NCBI RefSeq assembly: GCF_031458255.1
Contig: NZ_JAVDYC010000001.1
Coordinates: 5,589,001-5,653,000 of the forward strand
From: Catenuloplanes niger
GTDB taxonomy: Bacteria; Actinomycetota; Actinomycetes; Mycobacteriales; Micromonosporaceae
Direction: 5' to 3'
Length of the DNA stretch: 64,000 nucleotides
This document shows positions 8,893 to 23,877 of the stretch, one piece after another. Made by a program: the position numbers and the translations under genes. Below the pieces are notes generated by a model. It saw nothing but the letters and a program-made list of their open reading frames with translations, did no database searches and was not told where the DNA came from. Position 1 is the first letter of the stretch, and each line of letters opens with the position of its first letter.

Positions 8893-9810
8893 ATGAGCGA
8901 CCCACGGATCACCTCGTCGATCTTCACCCGCGGCGCGGTCGACCTCGGTGCGCTGCGGAGCACCCCGCAGCCGACCGCCGCGTCCGCGCCCGCGGCGCGT
9001 CCAGCCGCCCCCACCGCGGCCCCCGCCTCGCCGTCCGGAGCCGTCACCGTCATCGACGTGACCGACGCCGACTTCCGGACCGAGGTGCTGGAGCGGTCCC
9101 TGACCACGCCGGTCATCCTCGACTTCTGGGCCGAGTGGTGCCAGCCCTGCAAGCAGCTGTCCCCGGTCCTCGAGCGGCTCGCCGAGGAGGGCGGCGGCTC
9201 CTGGATCCTCGGCAAGGTCGACGTGGACGCCAACCCGGGCCTGGCCCAGGCGTTCCAGATCCAGAGCATCCCGATGGTCGCGGCCGTGGTCGGTGGCCAG
9301 CCCGTGCAGGGCTTCCAGGGCGCGCTGCCCGAGGCCCAGGTCCGGCAGTACATCGAGGCCGTGCTCAAGGCCGCCGGCGTGCAGGCACCGCAGCACGAGG
9401 ACCCGCGGCTGGCCGAGGCCGACGACGCGATGATGGACGGTGACCTGGACGCGGCCGAGGCGGCGTACAAGAAGATCCTCAACGAGTCACCGGCCGACGC
9501 GGCCGCCGAGTCCGGGCTCGCCCAGGTCTCGCTGTTCCGCCGGGTGCAGGGCGTCGACCCGGGCGCCACGCTCTCCGTCGCGGCCGGCGCGCCCGACGAC
9601 GTCAAGGCCCAGCTGCTCGCGGCGGACGTCGAGGTGCTCAACGGCAACGCGGCCGAGGCGTACGACCGGCTGATCAAGCTCATCCGCCGCGTCTTCGGCG
9701 ACGAGCGCGAGACGGTGCGCCGCCACCTGCTCTCGCTCTTCACCGTCGCCGGCCCGGACGACCCGGCCGTCGCGAGCGCCCGCCGCGCGCTGGCGAACGC
9801 GCTGTTCTAA
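8893..9810 (+). CDS. YbbN-like thioredoxin/TPR co-chaperone
   Basis: 305 aa cytoplasmic protein. Residues 1-50 are a Pro/Ala-rich linker; residues about 53-165 form a thioredoxin fold with the motif WCQPC (82-86). About 175-305 is a helical, tetratricopeptide-like C-terminal half (repeated AEAAYKKIL- and AEAYDRLI-type helices). That domain order is typical of YbbN/CnoX, which protects proteins from chlorine or oxidative stress and hands clients to GroEL or DnaK. Here both cysteines are present, so redox activity is possible, unlike the SXXC form in E. coli. The gene stands 12 nt upstream of the arginase-family gene and may be co-transcribed with it. Confidence 0.85.
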   Translation: MSDPRITSSIFTRGAVDLGALRSTPQPTAASAPAARPAAPTAAPASPSGAVTVIDVTDADFRTEVLERSLTTPVILDFWAEWCQPCKQLSPVLERLAEEGGGSWILGKVDVDANPGLAQAFQIQSIPMVAAVVGGQPVQGFQGALPEAQVRQYIEAVLKAAGVQAPQHEDPRLAEADDAMMDGDLDAAEAAYKKILNESPADAAAESGLAQVSLFRRVQGVDPGATLSVAAGAPDDVKAQLLAADVEVLNGNAAEAYDRLIKLIRRVFGDERETVRRHLLSLFTVAGPDDPAVASARRALANALF

Positions 9811-9822
9811 GAGGCCGCCGCC

Positions 9823-12800
9823 ATGCGCCGGATCGCCGTCCTCGACGCACCCTCCAACCTCGGTCTGCGCCCGCCGACCGAGACGTCGGTGCCGGGCTGC
9901 GCCAAGGCGCCGGGCGCGCTGCGGGACGCGGGGCTGCTCCACCGGCTCCGCGCCCGGGACGCCGGCTGCCTCACCCCGCCGCGGTACGACCCGGGCGACT
10001 GGCGGCCCGGCGACGGCGTCTGCCACGCGCCCGCGATCGGGGCGTACTCGGTGGCGCTCGCCGACCGGATCGGCGCGATCATCGACAACGGCGAGTTCCC
10101 GGTGATCCTGGGCGGCGACTGCTCGGTGTCGCTCGGCTCCGCGCTGGCCATGCGGCGCCTCGGCCAGTCCGTCGGCGGGCACGTCGGGCTGGTGTTCGTG
10201 GACGGCCACTCCGACTTCCGGCACCCCGGCAACGCGTCCTACGTGGGCGCGGCCGCGGGTGAGGGCCTCGCGCTGATCACCGGCCGCGGGCAGGCGGACC
10301 TGACCGCGCTGGAGGGGCGCCGGCCGTACTACCGGGACGTCGACGTGGTGGTGGTGGGCATCCGGGCCAACGACGAGTACCGGCTCGACCTGCAGGCCGC
10401 CGGGATCGTGACGCGCCCGGTCCCGGCGCTGCGCGCGGAGGGTGCGCCACGGTCCGCGCAGTGGGCACTGGACCAGATCGCCGACTGCGCCGGGTTCTGG
10501 GTGCACATCGACGTGGACGTGCTCGACCCGGCCGTGATGCCGGCCGTCGACGCGCCGGAACCGGGCGGGATCGCGTTCACCGAACTCGAAGCCCTCCTCG
10601 AACACCTCGTGGGTACGCCGCACTGCCTCGGCATGGAGATCACGGTCTTCGACCCGGACTACGACCCGGACGGCTCGTACGCGGCCGAGATCGTGGCCAC
10701 GGTCAGCGCCGGCATCGAGGCGGCCGGCCGGCTGCTGGCGGCGCCACGACCGCGCGGCGAGAACACGACGGAGCCGTCCGGCCCGGTCGAGTCGGTGACG
10801 GCGCCGTCCGACGGCGACCGGGCGGAGATGTCGACGTACCAGGCGCTGGTGGCGCGGGGCACGGGCGGGTTCGCCGGCCTGAGCGCCCCCGCCGTTCAGG
10901 ACCCGGCGGACTCGGCCGGCGGCGCCGGACCGCTGAGCGGTGCCGGTGATGCCGGGCCGTTCGGCGGTGTCGGCGGTGCTGGATCGTCGGGCGGTGCCGG
11001 CCGCGACGGGTCGTCCGGCGGTGCCGGCGGGTTCGGGCCGTTGGGTCGTGACGCAGCGGGCGGGCCGTCGGACTCCGCCGGCGGTGGCGGTCCGCTGGAC
11101 GCCACCGGTGGCGGGGCGCCGCTGGACCCGGCCGGCGGTGACCGGTCACCGGGTGATGCCACCGACGACGGCGTGGGCCCGGCCGACGACGACGGGACGG
11201 CCTTCACGGCGGCCGGAGACGGCGTCCGCGGTCCGGTACCGGCGCAGCCGGGCCCCCGCTCGGCCGGCGACGCCGTCCGGTTCGGCCCGGGCACCGGAGA
11301 GGCGGGCCGGTTCCGATCGGGCGCCGGAGAGGCTGGCCGGTTCGGATCGGGCGCGGGAGAGGCCGGCCGGTTCGGATCGCGCGCCGGTGAGGCCGGCCCG
11401 TTCGGATCGGGCACCGGAGAGACCGGCCGGTTCCGATCGCGCGCCGGCGAGGCTGGCCCGTTCGGATCGCGCGCCGATGACGCCGGACGGTTCGAGGCAC
11501 GTGACGATGACGCCGGACGGTTCGGGACGCGCGTCGACGAGTCCGTTCGGTTCGGGGCGCGTGACGATGACGCCGGACGGTTCGGGGCGGGCGACGGCGA
11601 CGGCGATCCGGTGCCGGGTTCCGGCCCGGCGACCGCGTTCGGCGCGCGGAGCGGTGCGGACGCCGACGAGAGTGACGTCGATCCGGTGGCACGGCTGCGA
11701 TCGCGTCTGATCGCCGACCGGGGACGTGCGGTGCGGTTCGGGGACGGTGCCGGCGACGACACGCTGTCGCCCGGCGGCCCGCACCCGGCCGACGACGCGG
11801 GCGGTCCCGCGGTGCCGAACACGGTGCGGGAGGCGCTGGCCCGCCGCGAGGCACAGGCCCGCAAGTCCAGCCCCACCTCCATAGCCGAGGCCGCGGCGCT
11901 GGCCAAGGCCCGGTTCGCGGCCGCGGCCGCCGCGGCCGCGAAACCCGAGCCGGACGACCCGGACCTGCCGCTCTCCGTCAGCGGACCGGCCGGCGGCGTC
12001 ATCCCGGCCCCGCTCACCATCGCCGGGCAGCACGTGGACGCGTCCCGCCGGACCGGCGGCCAGCGCCCCGGAAAGCCGGCCAAGCGCGCCGACGCCCCCG
12101 CGCGCCGCACCGGCTGGGACCTCGACGACCTGACCAGCCGCTCCGGCCTGCTCGCACCACGCCGGCCGGCCGACCCCGGCGACGCCGACTCGGACTCCCC
12201 GCGCCCCGGCGGCCTGCGTCGCCGTCCGCCGGCCGACGACGTGCCCCCGAGCGAACCCATCACCAGCACCAGCGTCACCAACCCCGACGTGGTACGCCCG
12301 GGCGGCCTGCGCCGCCGCCCACCACACCAGGGCGGATCCCTGCGCCGCCCGTCCCCGGGCACCCCCGCCGGCGGCCCGGACGACGCGGGCCCCGATGCCG
12401 AGGAGCCCGCCCCGGCCGCGTCCCCCACCGTGGGCAGCACTGCGTCCCCGGCCGGCGACACCACATCCGCTGAGGACGTCTCCCCGTCAGCGGACGGCGG
12501 TGGCACGTCTGCGCAGGACGTCTCCGTGTCTGCGGAGGACGATGCCGGGTCCGTTTCCGAGCCGCAGCAGGAGGAGGGTGGCGGCGATCTCGTTCCCAAC
12601 GCCGCCTCCTCGGCACCCATCGAATCCGAGGCGGCTACCGAGGCCCAGCAGACCGACGGCGCCGGTATCGAGTCACCGGGCGAGACCGAGTCGTCCGCTG
12701 AGATCGAGTCGTCCGGTCAGATCGAGTCGTCCGGTGAGGTCGAGTCGCCGGGCGATGTCGAGTCGCCGGGCGAGGCCGAGGCCGTCGATGGCGAGGCTGT

Positions 12801-14283
12801 TGGCGAGTTCGAGCCGGCCGACGAGGTGGAAGCTGCCGCGGTTGCCGAGGCGCCCGACGACCGCGAGGCGGCCGACGAAGCCGGCGCCACGGGTGCCGAG
12901 GCCTCCGATGAGGATGAGCCGGCCGACGCGGGCGACGCTGTCCCGGATGCCGAGGTGCTCGGCGAGGTCGGGTTGGCCGACGACGCTGAGGTCGATGCGG
13001 GCGCCGAGGCGTTCGGCGCGATTGAACCGATCGACGGAGCCGTGACTGCCGCTGATGCCGGGACGTCCGGCGAGCATGAGTCGCCCGCCGATGCCGAGGC
13101 GGTCGGCGATGCTGAGACGGTCGACGGGGCGGACACTATCGGCGGTACCGCAGCGGCCGAGGAGGTCTCGTCAAACGAGATCGTCGAGGTAGCGGAGGGG
13201 TCCGAGACGGACCACGGCGCGGCGGCCAACGAGGTTGTGCCGACTGGCGCCGCCGAGGCCGGCAATGCCGCTGAGGCTGCCGGCGCTGGTGAGGCTGAGG
13301 GCGCTGCCGGAACTGGTGCCGCTGAAGACATCGTTGAGCCCGCTGTCGCCGGTGGCGATGAGAACTTCACTGAGGCTGCTGGTGCTGCTAAGGCCCCTGG
13401 CCCCGACGCTGGCGAGGCTGAGCGCCTCGCTGGTGCTGCTGGTGCTGGTGACATCGGCGAGGCCGCTGGTGCTGAGGTCGCTGGTGCTGCTGAGGCTGCT
13501 AGTGCTGAGGCCGGCGTCGCCGAGGCCGCTGGTGTTGCTGAAGCCGGCACCGTCCCTGAGACGGGTGGCGATGCTGAAGCCAGCTTCGCCGAGCCCTCCG
13601 GCACTGCTGAGATCAGCGGTGCTGCTGAGCCGACGAGCGAGTCTGACGCGGACGACGAAGCTGCGCCAAAGGCAGAAATTACGCCGAAGACGGACGGGGA
13701 CGCCGAGAGCGGCCCCGGCGACGAGGTCGACCTGGATGACGCCGATTCGGCAGCGGAAGCCGCTTCTGTCACGGAGGCCGAGCCCGCAGCGGAAGCAGCT
13801 GATTCCGTCAGGCAGGCCGAGCCTGCTGCGGAGGCCGAGCTCACTGCGGAGGCCGAGCCTGCTGCGAAGGTCGAGCTCACTGCGGAGGCCGAGCCTGCTG
13901 CGGAGGCCGAGCTCACTGCGGAGGTCGAGCTCACTGCGGAGGCCGAGCCTGCTGCGGAGGCCGACCTCACTGCGGAGATCGAGCCTGCTGCGGAGGCCGA
14001 GCCCGCCGCGGAAGCCCGTTCATCCGAGCAAGGCGACCCGGTCGCGGACCCCGCGGGGAAGCCGGACGACGAGCCCGAACCGACGACGGCGGCCGGCGAG
14101 TCCGTCGCCCCGGCGACGGCTGGTTCGCCGTCGGTGGCAGGCCAGCCCGACGACCGGCCATCGCCTACGGTTCTGGGCCGTCTCCGACGCCTCATCGGTG
14201 CGAATCCCACGCAGCCCGGCCAGCCGTCGGCCGCTCCGGGACGGCTTCGTCGCGCAACCCCCGCTCCCGGCGACGCCGACTGA
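9823..14283 (+). CDS. Arginase-family hydrolase with a giant low-complexity tail
   Basis: 1486 aa. Residues 1 to about 310 form an arginase/agmatinase-type (ureohydrolase) domain: GGDCS at 97-101, DGHSD at 127-131 and HIDVDVLDP at 228-236. Five of the six family manganese ligands are recognisable (D127, H129, D131, D230, D232). The usual first His is Cys100. The remaining ~1,170 residues have no recognisable fold: a Gly-rich stretch, ten 10-residue repeats (about 490-589), a basic segment with repeated RPGGLRRRPP, then a long Ala/Glu/Asp-rich acidic region with EAEPAAEAELT-type repeats ending in a short basic end. Third-position GC falls around 13,200-13,650, within the acidic part. The frame stays open throughout, so I keep it as one gene, though the tail could be a recent expansion. 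GAGG precedes the ATG. Substrate not determinable. Confidence 0.75.
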   Translation: MRRIAVLDAPSNLGLRPPTETSVPGCAKAPGALRDAGLLHRLRARDAGCLTPPRYDPGDWRPGDGVCHAPAIGAYSVALADRIGAIIDNGEFPVILGGDCSVSLGSALAMRRLGQSVGGHVGLVFVDGHSDFRHPGNASYVGAAAGEGLALITGRGQADLTALEGRRPYYRDVDVVVVGIRANDEYRLDLQAAGIVTRPVPALRAEGAPRSAQWALDQIADCAGFWVHIDVDVLDPAVMPAVDAPEPGGIAFTELEALLEHLVGTPHCLGMEITVFDPDYDPDGSYAAEIVATVSAGIEAAGRLLAAPRPRGENTTEPSGPVESVTAPSDGDRAEMSTYQALVARGTGGFAGLSAPAVQDPADSAGGAGPLSGAGDAGPFGGVGGAGSSGGAGRDGSSGGAGGFGPLGRDAAGGPSDSAGGGGPLDATGGGAPLDPAGGDRSPGDATDDGVGPADDDGTAFTAAGDGVRGPVPAQPGPRSAGDAVRFGPGTGEAGRFRSGAGEAGRFGSGAGEAGRFGSRAGEAGPFGSGTGETGRFRSRAGEAGPFGSRADDAGRFEARDDDAGRFGTRVDESVRFGARDDDAGRFGAGDGDGDPVPGSGPATAFGARSGADADESDVDPVARLRSRLIADRGRAVRFGDGAGDDTLSPGGPHPADDAGGPAVPNTVREALARREAQARKSSPTSIAEAAALAKARFAAAAAAAAKPEPDDPDLPLSVSGPAGGVIPAPLTIAGQHVDASRRTGGQRPGKPAKRADAPARRTGWDLDDLTSRSGLLAPRRPADPGDADSDSPRPGGLRRRPPADDVPPSEPITSTSVTNPDVVRPGGLRRRPPHQGGSLRRPSPGTPAGGPDDAGPDAEEPAPAASPTVGSTASPAGDTTSAEDVSPSADGGGTSAQDVSVSAEDDAGSVSEPQQEEGGGDLVPNAASSAPIESEAATEAQQTDGAGIESPGETESSAEIESSGQIESSGEVESPGDVESPGEAEAVDGEAVGEFEPADEVEAAAVAEAPDDREAADEAGATGAEASDEDEPADAGDAVPDAEVLGEVGLADDAEVDAGAEAFGAIEPIDGAVTAADAGTSGEHESPADAEAVGDAETVDGADTIGGTAAAEEVSSNEIVEVAEGSETDHGAAANEVVPTGAAEAGNAAEAAGAGEAEGAAGTGAAEDIVEPAVAGGDENFTEAAGAAKAPGPDAGEAERLAGAAGAGDIGEAAGAEVAGAAEAASAEAGVAEAAGVAEAGTVPETGGDAEASFAEPSGTAEISGAAEPTSESDADDEAAPKAEITPKTDGDAESGPGDEVDLDDADSAAEAASVTEAEPAAEAADSVRQAEPAAEAELTAEAEPAAKVELTAEAEPAAEAELTAEVELTAEAEPAAEADLTAEIEPAAEAEPAAEARSSEQGDPVADPAGKPDDEPEPTTAAGESVAPATAGSPSVAGQPDDRPSPTVLGRLRRLIGANPTQPGQPSAAPGRLRRATPAPGDAD
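11290..11589 (+). repeat. Ten 30-bp in-frame repeats inside the arginase-family gene
   Basis: Ten consecutive units encode 10 residues each, from GTGEAGRFRS and GAGEAGRFGS to RDDDAGRFGA. The conserved core is (E/D)AGRFG. The unit length is a multiple of three, so copy-number change would keep the frame. Confidence 0.8.
13816..14016 (+). repeat. Acidic AEPAAEAELT repeat block in the tail
   Basis: Alternating AEPAAEA and (A/V)ELTAE modules, nearly identical at DNA level with gaggccgagcctgctgcg recurring. All are in frame with the arginase-family gene and code for a highly acidic, probably disordered segment. Confidence 0.7.
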
Positions 14284-14446
14284 CGCGAACCTGCCCGGCT
14301 GAACGCTAGGAAACCCACGGACCCTGTCGGCTGGATTCAACCCAACCGGCCGAACCCGCCCGCCTGGATGCGTTCGGAACCGGTGAAGTCCGCAGGCACC
14401 GCCCCGGCTCAGCCGGTGGCTCTTGCCGCTCCGCCGTGCGCCGCTC

Positions 14447-14877
14447 CGCCACGCGCCGCACGCCACGCGCCGCACGCCACGCGCCGCACGCCACGCGCCG
14501 CACGCCACGCGCCGCACGCCACGCGCCGCACGCCACGCGCCGCACGCCACGCGCCGCACGCCACGCGCCGCACGCCACGCGCCGCACGCCACGCGCCGCA
14601 CGCCACGCGCCGCACGCCACGCGCCGCACGCCACGCGCCGCACGCCACGCGCCGCACGCCACGCGCCGCACGCCACGCGCCGCACGCCACGCGCCGCACG
14701 CCACGCGCCGCACGCCACGCGCCGCACGCCACGCGCCGCACGCCACGCGCCGCACGCCACGCGCCGCACGCCACGCGCCGCACGCCACGCGCCGCACGCC
14801 ACGCGCCGCACGCCACGCGCCGCACGCCACGCGCCGCACGCCACGCGCCGCACGCCACGCGCCGCACGCCACGCGCC
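14447..14877. repeat. Perfect 14-bp tandem array, about 30.8 copies
   Basis: The unit CGCCACGCGCCGCA repeats without a single mismatch over 431 bp. 14 is not a multiple of 3, so all frames stay open on both strands but none is under a coding pattern. It lies 164 bp after the arginase-family stop and just before a strong stem-loop. The flanks (14442-14446 and 14878 onward) diverge sharply. Confidence 0.95.
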
Positions 14878-17145: not shown

Positions 17146-20100
17146 ATGGACCGGCGCCAGGTGACCGGCGGGGACGACAACACCCAGGACGACGAGGGGG
17201 CCGTCCCGGCACCCGGGTCCGAGGCGATCGAGTCGGGGGTGAGCGCTCGCGAGGTGGAGGACACCGAGCTCGAGGAGCCCCTGCCGAACGCGGAACGGCT
17301 GGTCGCGCAGGCGGTCGCGCTGGCCGGCGACGATCACGACACCGCGAGCCTGGTGGACCGGTTCTGGCGGTTCGCGGCCGACGAGGAGCTGGTCGGCTAC
17401 ACGCCGAAGTCGCTGCTCGACGCCGCGCTCCAGCACCGTGAGCTGGCCGCTCAGCGCGTTCCGGGCGAGCTGAAGCTCTCCATCGACGAGCTGTCCGAGC
17501 AGGGCCGCACCGTCATCCAGGTGATCACGGACGACATGCCGTTCCTGGTCGACTCGGTGACCGCGCTGCTGGAGGGCTACCACCTCGACATACATCTGCT
17601 GGCCCACCCGCTGCTGGTGGTGCGCCGCGAGCCGCTGGGCGCGCTGACCGAGGTCGCGGCCGAGGTCGAGCCGGACGAGGGCATCGACGGTGACCTGGTC
17701 GAGAGCTGGATGCGGATCGACGTCGACCCGGTGCGTGACACGGTCACCCGCGACCAGCTCTACCGGGAGCTGCAGCGGGTGCTCACGGACGTGCGGGACG
17801 CGGTCGAGGACTGGCCGCGGATGCGGCAGCGCGCGCTCGACATCGCGGTGGAGCTTTCCGCGGTGCGGGACACGCCGGACCGTCCGCCGGTGCCGGAGAA
17901 GGACCTGACCGACTCGATCGAGTTGCTGAACTGGCTGGCCGAGGAGCACTTCACGTTCCTCGGCTACCGGGAGTACGAGCTGGTCGACGGCGACGGCGAC
18001 GAGAAACTGCTGCGCGCCACGATGGGCTCCGGGCTGGGCATCCTGCGGGCCGACCAGCAGGCGCCGCGCGTGCTCTCCACGATGACGCCGGAGGCGTACG
18101 CGAAGGTGCTGGAGAAGCGCCTCCTGATCATCACGAAGGCGAACTCGCGCGCCACCGTGCACCGCTCCGCCTATCTCGACTACATCGGCATCAAGATGTT
18201 CGACGCGGCCGGTGAGGTGGTGGGGGAGCGGCGCTTCCTGGGCCTGCTCGCCACGGACGCGTACCGGACCAGCGTGACCGAGCTGCCGGTGGTCAAGCGC
18301 AAGGTCGCGGAGATCCTGGAGCGTTCCGGCCTGTCGCCGCGCAGCCACTCCGGCAAGGACCTGATGGCGATCCTGGAGACGTACCCGCGGGACGAGCTCT
18401 TCCAGATCAAGGTGGACGACCTCTACCACGCGGTGATCGGCGTGCTGCGCATGGCCGGGCGCCGGCAGCTGCGGCTGTTCCTGCGACGGGACGGGTACGG
18501 CCGGTTCATCTCCTGCCTGATCTATCTGCCGCGGGACCGGTTCACCACGGTCAACCGGCTGCGCATGCAGGAGATCCTGCTCCGCGAGCTGAACGGCGTC
18601 GGCGTCGACTACACCACCCGGGTCAGCGAGACGATGCTGGCCCGCGTGCACTTCATCGTGCGCACCGACCCGGCGAACCCGCCCGGCGCGGTGAACGCGG
18701 ACGCGCTGGCCGAGGACCTGGCCTACGCCACCCGGCTGTGGGACGACGACTTCCGCCTGGTGCTGGACCGCAAGCTCGGCGACGGCCAGGCGAAACGCCT
18801 CTACAGCCGGTACGTGGAGGCGCTGCCGGAGAGCTACAAGGACGAGTACAACCCGTACGAGTCCGTGCAGGACCTGGCGAAGCTGGAGCTGCTCGAAGAG
18901 GCCGGCCAGCTGGAGATGCACCTGTTCCCGAAGGACGACGAGGTCCGGTTCAAGGTCTTCCGGTACGGCGAGCCGATGGTCCTCTCCGACGTGCTCCCGG
19001 TGCTGCACTCGCTCGGCGTCCGGGTGCTGGACGAGCGCCCGTTCGAGATCTCGCTCGATCCCGCCTCGGTCTTCCTCTACGACTTCGGCCTGCGGCTGCC
19101 CGACTCGCACCGCGCGCTGCAGGAGGTCCGGCCGCACGTGGAGAACGCGTTCGCGGCCGCCTGGCGCACCGAGGCCGAGGTCGACGGCCTGAACGAGCTG
19201 GTGCTCCGGGCCGGCCTCACCTGGCGGCAGGTAGTGGTGCTCCGGGCGTACGCGAAGTACCTGCGGCAGGCCGGCGCGGTCTACTCGCAGGAGTACATGG
19301 AGTCCACGTTCGTGCAGTACCCGGCGATCGCGGCACTGCTGGTCCGGCTGTTCGAGACCCGGTTCTCGCCGTGGCTGCAGCTGGGCGAGGCCGAGCGCAC
19401 CACGCGCGCGGACGCGATCGTCGCCGAGATCACCGAGCGGCTGGACGAGGTGAGCAGCCTCGACCAGGACCGGATCATGCGGTCCTTCCTGACGCTGCTG
19501 CAGGCCACCCTGCGCACCAGCTTCTACCAGCGCGGCAAGGACAACCGGCCGAAGTCGTACGTGGCGTTCAAGCTCGACCCGCAGGCGATCCCGGACCTGC
19601 CCGCGCCGCGCCCGATGTACGAGATCTTCGTCTACTCGCCGCGCTTCGAGGGCGTGCACCTGCGCTTCGGCGCGGTCGCGCGCGGCGGCCTGCGCTGGTC
19701 CGACCGGCGCGAGGACTTCCGCACCGAGATCCTCGGCCTGGTCAAGGCGCAGATGGTGAAGAACGCGGTGATCGTGCCGGTCGGCGCGAAGGGTGGTTTC
19801 GTCCTCAAGCAGGCACCGCCCGCGTCCGACCGCGACGCGTTCCTGGCCGAGGGCGTGGCCTGCTACCGGCAGTTCATCGCCGCGCTGCTGGACGTCACGG
19901 ACAACATCTCCGGTGGCAAGATCGTGCCGCCGCGCGAGGTGGTCCGGCACGACGGCGACGACCCGTACCTCGTGGTCGCGGCGGACAAGGGCACGGCCAC
20001 GTTCTCCGACATCGCGAACGAGATCTCGGTCGCGGCGGACTTCTGGCTCGGTGACGCGTTCGCGTCCGGCGGCTCGGCCGGCTACGACCACAAGAAGATG

Positions 20101-22080
20101 GGCATCACCGCGCGCGGCGCCTGGGAGTCGGTCAAGAAGCACTTCCGCGACCTGGGGCTGAACACGCAGGCCGAGGACTTCACCGTGGTCGGCGTGGGCG
20201 ACATGTCCGGCGACGTGTTCGGCAACGGCATGCTGCTCTCCGAGCACATCCGGCTGGTCGCGGCGTTCGACCACCGGCACATCTTCCTCGACCCGACGCC
20301 GGACGCGGCCACCTCGTTCGCGGAACGGCAGCGGATGTTCGCGTTGCCGCGCTCGTCGTGGGCCGACTACGACACCTCGCTGATCTCCGCGGGCGGCGGC
20401 GTCTTCCCGCGTACCGCGAAGTCCATCCCGGTCTCCGCGGAGGCGGCGCGGGCGCTCGGGCTGCCCGGCCCGGCGAGCCTGAGCCCGCAGGAGCTGATGC
20501 GGGCGATCCTGCTCGCCCCGGTCGACCTGCTGTTCAACGGCGGCATCGGCACCTACGTGAAGGCCGCGTCCGAGTCGCACGGCGACGTCGGCGACAAGGC
20601 CAACGACCCGATCCGGGTCAACGGCGGCCAGTTGCGCGTGCGGGTGGTCGGCGAGGGCGGCAACCTGGGCCTGACCCAGCGCGGCCGGATCGAGTTCGCG
20701 CTCAACGGCGGCAAGATCGGCACCGACTTCATCGACAACTCGGCCGGCGTCGACTGCTCCGACCACGAGGTCAACATCAAGATCCTGCTCGGTGGCGCGG
20801 TCGCGGACGGCGACCTGACCGTCGCCGACCGGGACGCGCTGCTGGCCGAGATGACGGACGAGGTCGCCGCGCTGGTGCTGCGCGACAACTACGAGCAGGC
20901 CGGGGCGCTCGGCACCGCGTGCGCGCAGTCCCGGTCGCTGCTGCCCGTGCACCGGCGGATGATCTCCGACCTGGTCGCGGCCGGGCACCTCGACCGCGAG
21001 CTGGAGGCGCTGCCGAGCGACGCGGAGCTGGACGCGCGCGAGCACGGACTCTCCGCGCCCGAGTTCGCGGTGCTGCTCGCGTACACCAAGATCGTTCTGG
21101 AGAAGGAGATCCTGGAGGACTCGATCGCGGACGAGCCGTGGACCGCGGACGTGCTCACCCACTACTTCCCGACCGCGCTGCGCGAACGCTACGCCGACCG
21201 CATGCCCGGCCACCGGCTGCGCCGCGAGATCGTCACGACCGTGCTGGTCAACGAGGTGGTCAACCGCGGCGGCACGTCGTTCGTCTACCGTGCGATGGAC
21301 GAGTCCGGCGCGTCCGCCTCCGACGTCATCCGGGCGTACACGGTGGTCCGCGACGTCTTCGGCCTGCGCGACCTGTGGGCCGCCGTCGAGGCCCAGGACA
21401 ACGTCATCCCGACGTCCGCGCAGATCCTGGTCTACCTGGAGGGCCGCCGGCTGCTCGACCGCGCGGTCCGCTGGATCGTCGGCAACCGGCGCTCCCCGCT
21501 GGACGTACCCGACGAGACCGCCCGCCTCCGGGCCGGTATCGCCGCGCTGCTCCCGCGCCTGGAACGTCAGCTCCAGGGCGCCGAACTGCAGGCCTTCGAG
21601 GCGCGCGTCGCCGAGATGACCGAACAGCACGTGCCGCGCGACCTCGCGGTCTGGGCCACCCGCCTGGTCTACAGCTTCGGCCTGCTCGACATCGTCGAGA
21701 CCGCGTCCGTCACCGGCCGGGACGTCAACGAGGTCGCCGAGGTCTACTTCGTCCTCTCCGAACGCCTCCGCGTCGACTCGCTGCTCTCCAAGGTCTCCGC
21801 GCTCCCGCGCAACGACCGCTGGCAGACCCTCGCCCGGATGGCGCTCCGCTACGACCTCTACGCCGCGCTGGCCGCGCTCACCGCCGAGGTCCTCCAGTCC
21901 TCCGACGACACCATCGCCGCCGAGGACCGCGTCAACGCCTGGGAACGGGCCAACTCGTCCGCGCTCACCCGCGCCCGCAAGTCGATGACCGACTTCGGCG
22001 AGTCCGCCGGCGACCTGGCCGCGCTCTCGGTGCTCCTCCGCCAGATCCGCACCCTGGTCAAGACCTCAGCCGCAGGCTGA
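17146..22080 (+). CDS. NAD-dependent glutamate dehydrogenase, large (GDH-180 class)
   Basis: 1644 aa; oxidises glutamate to 2-oxoglutarate and ammonia with NAD+, a catabolic enzyme of nitrogen and carbon balance in the cytoplasm. The size and the arrangement (long N-terminal ACT-like regulatory region to about 700, central catalytic domain, helical C-terminal region) are those of the 180-kDa bacterial NAD-GDH family. The central region holds RGGLRWSDR starting at residue 846 and the GAKGGF segment with Lys882, both typical of the glutamate-dehydrogenase active site. The ATG is preceded by AGGGGAG. It ends 9 nt before a strong GC stem-loop. In related organisms this enzyme is controlled allosterically and, in mycobacteria, by GarA; nothing here tests that. 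Confidence 0.93.
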   Translation: MDRRQVTGGDDNTQDDEGAVPAPGSEAIESGVSAREVEDTELEEPLPNAERLVAQAVALAGDDHDTASLVDRFWRFAADEELVGYTPKSLLDAALQHRELAAQRVPGELKLSIDELSEQGRTVIQVITDDMPFLVDSVTALLEGYHLDIHLLAHPLLVVRREPLGALTEVAAEVEPDEGIDGDLVESWMRIDVDPVRDTVTRDQLYRELQRVLTDVRDAVEDWPRMRQRALDIAVELSAVRDTPDRPPVPEKDLTDSIELLNWLAEEHFTFLGYREYELVDGDGDEKLLRATMGSGLGILRADQQAPRVLSTMTPEAYAKVLEKRLLIITKANSRATVHRSAYLDYIGIKMFDAAGEVVGERRFLGLLATDAYRTSVTELPVVKRKVAEILERSGLSPRSHSGKDLMAILETYPRDELFQIKVDDLYHAVIGVLRMAGRRQLRLFLRRDGYGRFISCLIYLPRDRFTTVNRLRMQEILLRELNGVGVDYTTRVSETMLARVHFIVRTDPANPPGAVNADALAEDLAYATRLWDDDFRLVLDRKLGDGQAKRLYSRYVEALPESYKDEYNPYESVQDLAKLELLEEAGQLEMHLFPKDDEVRFKVFRYGEPMVLSDVLPVLHSLGVRVLDERPFEISLDPASVFLYDFGLRLPDSHRALQEVRPHVENAFAAAWRTEAEVDGLNELVLRAGLTWRQVVVLRAYAKYLRQAGAVYSQEYMESTFVQYPAIAALLVRLFETRFSPWLQLGEAERTTRADAIVAEITERLDEVSSLDQDRIMRSFLTLLQATLRTSFYQRGKDNRPKSYVAFKLDPQAIPDLPAPRPMYEIFVYSPRFEGVHLRFGAVARGGLRWSDRREDFRTEILGLVKAQMVKNAVIVPVGAKGGFVLKQAPPASDRDAFLAEGVACYRQFIAALLDVTDNISGGKIVPPREVVRHDGDDPYLVVAADKGTATFSDIANEISVAADFWLGDAFASGGSAGYDHKKMGITARGAWESVKKHFRDLGLNTQAEDFTVVGVGDMSGDVFGNGMLLSEHIRLVAAFDHRHIFLDPTPDAATSFAERQRMFALPRSSWADYDTSLISAGGGVFPRTAKSIPVSAEAARALGLPGPASLSPQELMRAILLAPVDLLFNGGIGTYVKAASESHGDVGDKANDPIRVNGGQLRVRVVGEGGNLGLTQRGRIEFALNGGKIGTDFIDNSAGVDCSDHEVNIKILLGGAVADGDLTVADRDALLAEMTDEVAALVLRDNYEQAGALGTACAQSRSLLPVHRRMISDLVAAGHLDRELEALPSDAELDAREHGLSAPEFAVLLAYTKIVLEKEILEDSIADEPWTADVLTHYFPTALRERYADRMPGHRLRREIVTTVLVNEVVNRGGTSFVYRAMDESGASASDVIRAYTVVRDVFGLRDLWAAVEAQDNVIPTSAQILVYLEGRRLLDRAVRWIVGNRRSPLDVPDETARLRAGIAALLPRLERQLQGAELQAFEARVAEMTEQHVPRDLAVWATRLVYSFGLLDIVETASVTGRDVNEVAEVYFVLSERLRVDSLLSKVSALPRNDRWQTLARMALRYDLYAALAALTAEVLQSSDDTIAAEDRVNAWERANSSALTRARKSMTDFGESAGDLAALSVLLRQIRTLVKTSAAG

Positions 22081-23244: not shown

Positions 23245-23394
23245 CCCCGCACACCCAACTCCCCGGCGCGCCGGGCGCAGCCGTTAAAAGCCGATATTTC
23301 GGGCGCGGAGCGCCCGGCCGCACATCACCTGTCGCTCGCAGGCGCGACTGGCCCCACGGCGATGCATCGTGACAGCGATACGGCCGATACGGCC

Positions 23395-23506
23395 GCGCGG
23401 CGTGGGCCGCGCGGCGTGGGTTGCGCGGTGTGGGTTGCGCGGCGTGGGCCGCGCGGCGTGGGTTGCGCGGTGTGGGTTGCGCGGCGTGGGCCGCGCGGCG
23501 TGGGTT
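23395..23506. repeat. 14-bp repeats in a 42-bp higher-order pattern
   Basis: Eight exact 14-bp units in the order A-B-C-A-B-C-A-B: A GCGCGGCGTGGGCC, B GCGCGGCGTGGGTT, C GCGCGGTGTGGGTT. The next C copy is broken. The period and the GCGGCG/GTGG core resemble the reverse complement of the 14-bp array at 14.4 kb. The spacer 23245-23877 (about 630 bp) otherwise shows no gene. Confidence 0.9.
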
Positions 23507-23670
23507 GCGGTGGTGCGACGGCGGTGAGTTCGCGCGGCGGAGGGCGGGCGGCGGAGCGTTTGTAAGCGGTGCGGTCGCAGTAGCGGTGCGGACGCCTGCA
23601 CCGCAAAGCTGAGAACCGGAAGCGAAACCGCGGAGCGGGCCCCGAGGCCGGGAACCGCCCGTGCGCGGTA

Positions 23671-23775
23671 CCGCCGGGCAGGAAACCGTCGGGCAGGAAA
23701 CCGTCGGGCAGGAAACCGCCGGGCAGGAAACCGCCGGGCAGGAAACCGCCGGGCAGGAAACCGCCGGGCGGAGAA
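23671..23775. repeat. 15-bp tandem repeats, six copies plus one degenerate
   Basis: Unit CC(G)(C/T)CGGGCAGGAAA-type, read as CCGCCGGGCAGGAAA or CCGTCGGGCAGGAAA, six times from 23671 to 23760. A degenerate seventh reaches 23775. In one frame it would encode AGQET repeats, but that reading lacks a ribosome site and neighbours' codon bias, so I treat it as non-coding. Confidence 0.9.
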
Positions 23776-23877
23776 CCGCCGGGGCCGGCGACGGGGTGGA
23801 ACGCACCGCGCCCGCCGCCGGGCCGAGGGGCCGGTGGCGGGCGCGGTGCGCGGATGCGTACCCCCGTGGGCCGGGTG

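Follow-up and report, generated by a model that had tools for sequence, protein, structure and literature searches.

A gene of Catenuloplanes niger (ORF 9823-14283 on the forward strand of the 64,000-nucleotide stretch analysed here, the window) encodes a putative metallohydrolase of the arginase fold that continues into a predicted-disordered C-terminal tail of 1,186 residues. We consider it about an even call that this tail serves as a flexible tether, with short motifs, chiefly near its end, docking the enzyme on a partner. The ORF starts with ATG, encodes 1,486 aa with no internal stop, and lies in a 9.74-Mb genome on a single contig; Pfam Arginase (PF00491) matched its residues 5-293 (E = 2.9e-30). 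The original prediction, made from the DNA letters and their open reading frames, had placed an arginase-family enzyme with a long tail at 10770-14283. The feature is real, but that interval covers only the tail (residues 316-1486, 1,171 aa). A very long, charge-segmented and predicted-disordered tail on an arginase-fold protein was borne out by Pfam, AlphaFold and composition (Table 1).

Table 1. Features of the tailed arginase-fold gene and its neighbours, in window positions
Feature	Position	Strand	Basis
Thioredoxin + TPR gene, 12 nt upstream of ORF 9823-14283	8893..9810	+	Pfam Thioredoxin, TPR_20
Arginase-fold core, residues 1-300	9823..10722	+	Pfam PF00491, AlphaFold, Foldseek, aligned residues
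Disordered C-terminal tail (predicted), residues 301-1486	10723..14280	+	AlphaFold pLDDT, composition, open frame in 5/5 Catenuloplanes
Conserved island TYxALVAR, residues 338-345	10834..10857	+	7/8 positions invariant, 5-row Catenuloplanes alignment
10-residue (30-bp) repeat section, hypervariable across species	11263..11602	+	Tandem Repeats Finder; alignment
Conserved island, two predicted helices (VPNTVREALARREAQARKSSPTSIAEAAALAKARFAAA), residues 664-705	11812..11937	+	Alignment; AlphaFold
Conserved island DLPLSVSGPAGGVIPAPLTI...GWDLDDLTSRSGLL, residues 714-778	11962..12156	+	Alignment; dN/dS
PG-x-LRR motif copy 1, RPGGLRRRPP, residues 794-803	12202..12231	+	Motif scan
PG-x-LRR motif copy 2, RPGGLRRRPP, residues 825-834	12295..12324	+	Motif scan; alignment
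Acidic, repeat-rich section, residues about 880-1400	12460..14022	+	Composition; alignment
TVLGRLRRLIG, residues 1449-1459, predicted helix	14167..14199	+	5/5 Catenuloplanes identical; AlphaFold
C-terminal PG-x-LRR motif (PGRLRR), residues 1472-1477	14236..14253	+	Motif scan; other genera have a counterpart
Penicillin-binding protein, MecA_N/dimerisation/transpeptidase	ORF from 14956	-	Pfam
Large NAD-glutamate dehydrogenase	17146-22080	+	Pfam

The core scored 106.2 bits against PF00491, for which the curated cut-off is 22, placing it within the superfamily. Its AlphaFold model (mean pLDDT 77.5, 16-row alignment) retrieved B. subtilis arginase 6nfp as the first Foldseek match (E = 9.6e-19, TM 0.73, rmsd 5.9), and the two methods together indicate the alpha/beta/alpha fold of arginases. 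The core fell below the curated cut-offs for L-arginase RocF (TIGR01229, 84.2 against 227.6 bits), agmatinase (TIGR01230, 43.4 against 174.3) and formimidoylglutamase HutG (TIGR01227, 58.8 against 229.15). These cut-offs rule out a standard arginase, agmatinase or HutG identity, and the core is therefore a superfamily member outside these three enzyme families.

Bacterial L-arginases (RocF; Thermus 2eiv and 2ef4, B. subtilis 6nfp) share the fold and five of six metal ligands with the core (phmmer E = 1.6e-25 against 2eiv), whereas the core has Cys for the first ligand His, replacements at the arginine site and an added tail. In the six-ligand map that we take to describe L-arginase, the first ligand is His; the position aligned with it in the core is Cys100, which was found in all 135 aligned family rows. 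The other five ligands are kept, with D127, D131, D230 and D232 in 135 and H129 in 134 of the 135 rows. Substrate contacts were assigned to aligned core positions from the residues presumed to bind arginine (Asn130, Asn139/His141 and Glu277, rat numbering), and none of them is retained: Arg133 aligns with the Asn that follows the Asp-x-His-x-Asp motif, Ala occupies both the Asn and the His position of the SGNxHG loop (Ala/Ala), and the guanidinium-binding Glu is aligned with Val275. On these profile and residue comparisons the core is not a standard arginase. Most likely it is an arginase-fold metallohydrolase whose metal site contains Cys; we infer that it is catalytic, and free L-arginine is probably not its substrate.

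No part of the protein is better conserved than the core, with 94-99% identity within Catenuloplanes, 81-86% to other genera in the listed rows (59-85% over genus representatives) and a dN/dS of 0.03-0.15. The suggestion that the tail points to a role instead of catalysis found no support, as the conservation of the core and its metal ligands within the family speaks for catalysis. Caution comes from more distant Cys-type arginase-like proteins of other actinobacteria (L098-L118), about 42-53% identical to the core. They share Cys100 (21 of 21) and mostly Arg133 (20 of 21), but metal-binding His129 is kept in just 8 of the 21, so that the metal site is not preserved throughout this wider group. 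In the other 13 (L099-L102, L104-L107, L109-L112 and L114), the His is Ser, Leu or deleted. At L161 (genome G043) the core match is split, with query 2-119 and query 118-295 separated by about 147 bases of one open frame, so that an insertion interrupts the arginase-like core. The genome of L158 (G017) carries two arginase-like genes, 62% and 51% identical to the core.

Disorder of the tail was assessed from an AlphaFold model built on a 5-row alignment, in which 1125 of 1186 residues had pLDDT below 50; composition agrees with a disordered region. The Gly-rich, 10-residue-repeat, RPGGLRRRPP and acidic sections described at the outset are each present. The label "basic" suits the RPGGLRRRPP motifs themselves but not a broad block, the net charge per residue over residues 661-880 being +0.014. 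The Gly-rich stretch begins near residue 360, residues 301-600 having 25-29 Gly per 100, and the other four Catenuloplanes show gaps or a different sequence where the 10-residue repeat section lies. Residues 901-1400 contain 137 D/E against 8 K/R; the acidic section has a net charge per residue of about -0.25 to -0.27 and is not reliably alignable across species. Composition and helix moment were scored with TOP-IDP disorder, hydropathy and hydrophobic-moment scales. Across the family, the last residue is Ala in 77 of 118 tails, often as DTA, DIA or GIA, which could reflect shared descent or a degradation signal.

All five Catenuloplanes keep the tail's reading frame open from end to end, for 874-1,231 residues past the core; the other five of the six frames are never fully open. 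An antisense gene within the tail was rejected, the antisense frames carrying 2 to 22 stops in each of the five species. The last 40 codons gave a dN/dS of 0.10-0.36 at high synonymous divergence (0.29-0.63 of sites) and residues 664-872 gave 0.27-0.35, both indicating purifying selection, while values for the variable sections were set aside because of unreliable alignment and near-saturated sites. Tandem Repeats Finder placed 46 repeat rows within the ORFs of four Catenuloplanes (window 16, L093 7, L092 13, L095 10; rows overlap); every one has a period divisible by 3, and the repeat units differ from species to species. The open frame, the selection at the far end, the invariant TVLGRLRRLIG described below and the in-frame repeats argue that translation does not stop near residue 320 in Catenuloplanes, and sequence evidence of this kind indicates that the tail is translated to its end. 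We give hardly any credence to an early stop or a tail that is an artefact of gene calling: the GC content of codon position 3, which is 0.92-0.99 in the core but 0.60-0.94 in the tail, would suit it, as would the apparent frameshifts of some relatives, yet only this frame is open in all five species and its far end is under purifying selection.

Those frameshifts were seen when PG.LR[RPK] was sought in 118 distinct tails of at least 40 aa. The motif was absent in frame from 34 tails, and six of the 34 (L049, L063, L125, L127, L166 and L176) have it in another frame. These could be either draft errors or real; the contig of L049 has undetermined bases within the tail, and L063, L166 and L176 show positive charge in the open frame. 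Relatives with a stop or frameshift had been named in advance as evidence against the long tail. They exist to this extent, but early termination as a rule is disfavoured because the far C-terminus is conserved in other species.

Within Catenuloplanes the middle of the tail is not alignable, unlike the core, and conserved islands stand out from it. AlphaFold predicted three tail helices of at least eight residues, at tail positions 368-379 and 387-404 (mean pLDDT 65-77 in blocks 371-400) and 1150-1159 (block pLDDT 64), and all three coincide with conserved islands; a five-residue helix at tail 322-326 falls outside them. The most distal island, TVLGRLRRLIG, is identical in all five species although it lies 836-1,191 residues past the core and, in the window, follows some 570 variable residues. 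TVLGRLRRLIG resembles MinD tails, but its moment of 0.606 is ordinary, being reached by 24% of its own shuffles, and a MinD-type membrane-targeting helix was therefore not adopted.

PG.LR[RPK] was present in 84 of the 118 tails, with 143 occurrences in total, whereas shuffled tails with the motif numbered 0.66 on average and 5 at most. The median distance from the start of its last copy to the C-terminus is 31 residues. Copy number ranges from 1 to 13 per motif-bearing tail, 64 of the 84 having a single copy, the window tail three, L165 twelve and L178 thirteen. The ten residues preceding the motif read EPVGPPASAG, each position agreeing in 42-68 of 84 tails (14-31 of 84 further out), and these positions lie outside those fixed by the search pattern. 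As a small conserved island in variable, predicted-disordered surroundings, the motif has the form of a short linear motif. Tails lacking the motif in frame include both Salinispora rows and several from Micromonospora, and the C-terminal copy in L093 reads PARLRR, outside the pattern. Five tails cut by a contig end (L028, L045, L064, L073 and L087) belong to the 118; without them the count is 83 of 113. Since the pattern was picked after the tails had been read, and since related species share motifs partly by descent so that rows are not independent, these counts describe rather than strictly test the motif, for which dN/dS provides independent support. With this reservation, the sequence patterns indicate that the frame of the tail has been kept and its motifs selected.

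We then examined how widely the protein is distributed. The core was found in 246 of 250 Micromonosporaceae genomes at E <= 1e-40. Among the four misses, G028 is 80% complete and G152, G172 and G246 are 99-100% complete; the latter three had no core match even at E <= 1e-15. G198, counted among the 246, has a best match just 45% identical that may be a paralogue. Class-wide, 35 of 296 genomes matched at E <= 1e-20, three of them from this family, the window genome included. The named loci are the best 80 of 271 matches and therefore lean to close relatives; of four genera not fetched as loci, three had a match (G009, G036 and G041) and one had none (G028). In 130 distinct complete Micromonosporaceae relatives the tail measures 0 to 1,231 aa (median 159.5), with 5 having none, 17 under 40 aa, 27 of at least 300 aa and 5 of at least 1,000 aa, one of the last (L166) apparently frameshifted. 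The search in related genomes thus found a tail common to much of the family and not a one-off fusion. Outside the family, among L098-L118, the tail is shorter than 10 aa in 18 of the 20 proteins whose end is visible, and PG.LR[RPK] occurs in none of these relatives. Duplicate loci (L094, L168 and L169) were dropped before motif counts, residue table and tree, and L164, which is without a core, was also dropped. As the insertion splits its core, L161 does not figure in the residue table, the length summary or the tree, and the five contig-end-cut tails entered neither the 130 nor the tree. Of 136 distinct rows, 84 were used for the core tree, Micromonospora-type rows being sampled one in four. 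The tree, rooted at its midpoint, places the five 0-aa rows and one 28-aa row on one branch beside the root and has long tails arising in several separate lineages; many of its inner branches are weak, and its bootstrap had not settled.

The main rival to a tether is a tail of mostly tolerated filler: GC-rich in-frame minisatellites at a permissive C-terminus, where selection only purges frameshifts and the motifs have a minor role, for instance in solubility or turnover. The variation just described suits this rival, as tail length differs widely even between close relatives, repeat units change between species, five relatives are tailless, and 34 of 118 tails are without the motif in frame, six of them apparently frameshifted. 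Given these absences, motif and tail are dispensable in some lineages. Against filler stand the purifying selection seen both in residues 664-872 and over the last 40 codons, a motif count far above that of shuffles, and an invariant TVLGRLRRLIG beyond such a long variable stretch, and we hold this alternative to be doubtful.

A variable tail with few short motifs, most of them near its end, suggests instead a tether to a partner. On this tether reading, an arginase-fold putative metallohydrolase would carry a disordered tail as a flexible tether, and its sparse motifs, chiefly PG-x-LR[R/P/K] near the C-terminus, would bring the enzyme to a docking partner. Between the motifs, the long and mostly acidic stretches built of repeats would be spacers; tandem repeats gained or lost in frame would lengthen or shorten them, and selection would have to preserve no more than their frame and composition. 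Binding of a partner by the motif and tethering by the spacer are, like catalysis by the core, what we infer from these patterns. A more specific version, which we think possible while leaning against it, makes this near-universal Micromonosporaceae enzyme a tethered or multivalent hub: the lineage-specific motif PG-x-LR[R/P/K] would recruit it to a dedicated partner, with reach and valency tuned by in-frame repeat expansion (1-13 copies, 0 to about 1,230 residues).

Multivalency could also produce a scaffold or condensate, in which PG-x-LRR copies and acidic low-complexity stretches would concentrate the enzyme and its clients; the original prediction had suggested scaffolding, phase separation or cell-pole targeting as possible roles of the tail. 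Charge segmentation of the tail and the multiple motif copies of the window, L165 and L178 are compatible with such a role, but most motif-bearing tails have one copy and many tails are short, as the median length indicates. Aromatic residues, which often drive phase separation, are also few (2% in the window tail, and a median of 1.2% across the 72 tails that reach 150 aa). We regard a scaffold or condensate as unlikely for the family, although phase separation in the multi-copy lineages is possible.

A second protein with the motif would point to a shared receptor. A PG-x-LRR motif profile (A3), with which 150 of 1,039-1,373 first-look candidates were scored in each of five genomes, detected no clear copy outside this gene, and no partner was found. 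Among the candidates scored, E < 0.001 was reached solely by this gene in four of the five genomes, and in G088 the gene's best E was 0.0015 and that of another place 0.0022. Ten of the other matches were read in translation. The best two (L188 and L189) run opposite to the coding strand of a gene for a UvrD-like helicase, L195 is part of a DUF2264 domain, and the remaining seven look by eye like wrong frames or, in L200, like sequence upstream of a start. Residues 663-856 matched only themselves across the genome (other match E = 2.29), and no paper on the three motif strings was found in the open-access literature.

Absence of a clear copy in other proteins among the candidates scored in the five genomes, together with the pairing of an arginine motif and an arginase-fold enzyme in one lineage, would also fit a motif that acts on its own enzyme. 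PG-x-LRR could inhibit the enzyme from a place in or near the active site, or could supply arginines as substrate, as for peptide arginases. The Glu that holds the guanidinium is absent from the core (Val275) and tailless relatives with the same Cys100 exist, which makes such self-action quite improbable.

We also examined the gene neighbourhood across 139 loci, and it names no substrate. In 138 of the 139, the thioredoxin-TPR gene, which we take to be CnoX/YbbN-like, precedes the arginase-like gene on the same strand; the exception, L061, starts too near the gene to reveal it, and the spacing is larger in L158 (about 2.2 kb) and L160. A methylmalonyl-CoA-mutase-like gene recurs in at least 103 loci, the oppositely oriented penicillin-binding protein gene in at least 110 and the large NAD-glutamate dehydrogenase gene in at least 98, all lower bounds because the loci end. 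A 14-bp unit (GCGCCGCACGCCAC) is repeated between the stop of the ORF and the convergent penicillin-binding-protein gene, in 31 near-perfect copies at 14438-14877. The exact two-unit pattern occurs 29 times in the genome, all within this array, and not at all in the four other Catenuloplanes. Further tandem arrays of 14/42-bp and 15-bp units lie about 9 kb downstream (23391-23509 and 23670-23783).

Comparison with other systems places both parts of the protein in context. DcsB, an N-omega-hydroxy-L-arginine amidinohydrolase (6lug), belongs to the same superfamily (phmmer E = 1.7e-9) with low overall similarity, and probably also has Cys at a metal-binding His position; at 281 aa it is without a long tail. 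The Cys-type proteins of other actinobacteria are mostly tailless and motif-less. RNase E and FtsZ combine a conserved core, a variable disordered spacer and conserved short motifs, and their partners are known; their architecture is like that described here, although the cores are unrelated. The mammalian agmatinase-like protein LIMCH1 is reported to have agmatinase activity and about 60% disordered regions, to differ markedly from known ureohydrolases and to be without their metal residues (PMC12650571); we claim no homology between it and the Catenuloplanes protein. The original prediction knew of no described arginase of this form; we likewise found no description of a long tail on an arginase-like protein in the open-access literature. 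Arginase-fold proteins themselves are known.

The arginase-fold core, present in 246 of 250 Micromonosporaceae genomes (the G198 match perhaps being a paralogue), has a Cys-type metal site, and the loss of the metal His in 13 of the 21 outside relatives raises the question of what those proteins do. To our knowledge, well-studied bacterial metabolic enzymes that combine a long disordered tail with conserved binding motifs are few. The family offers a natural series of closely related cores with tails of 0-1,231 residues and 0-13 motif copies, which would make the effects of tether length and valency directly testable.
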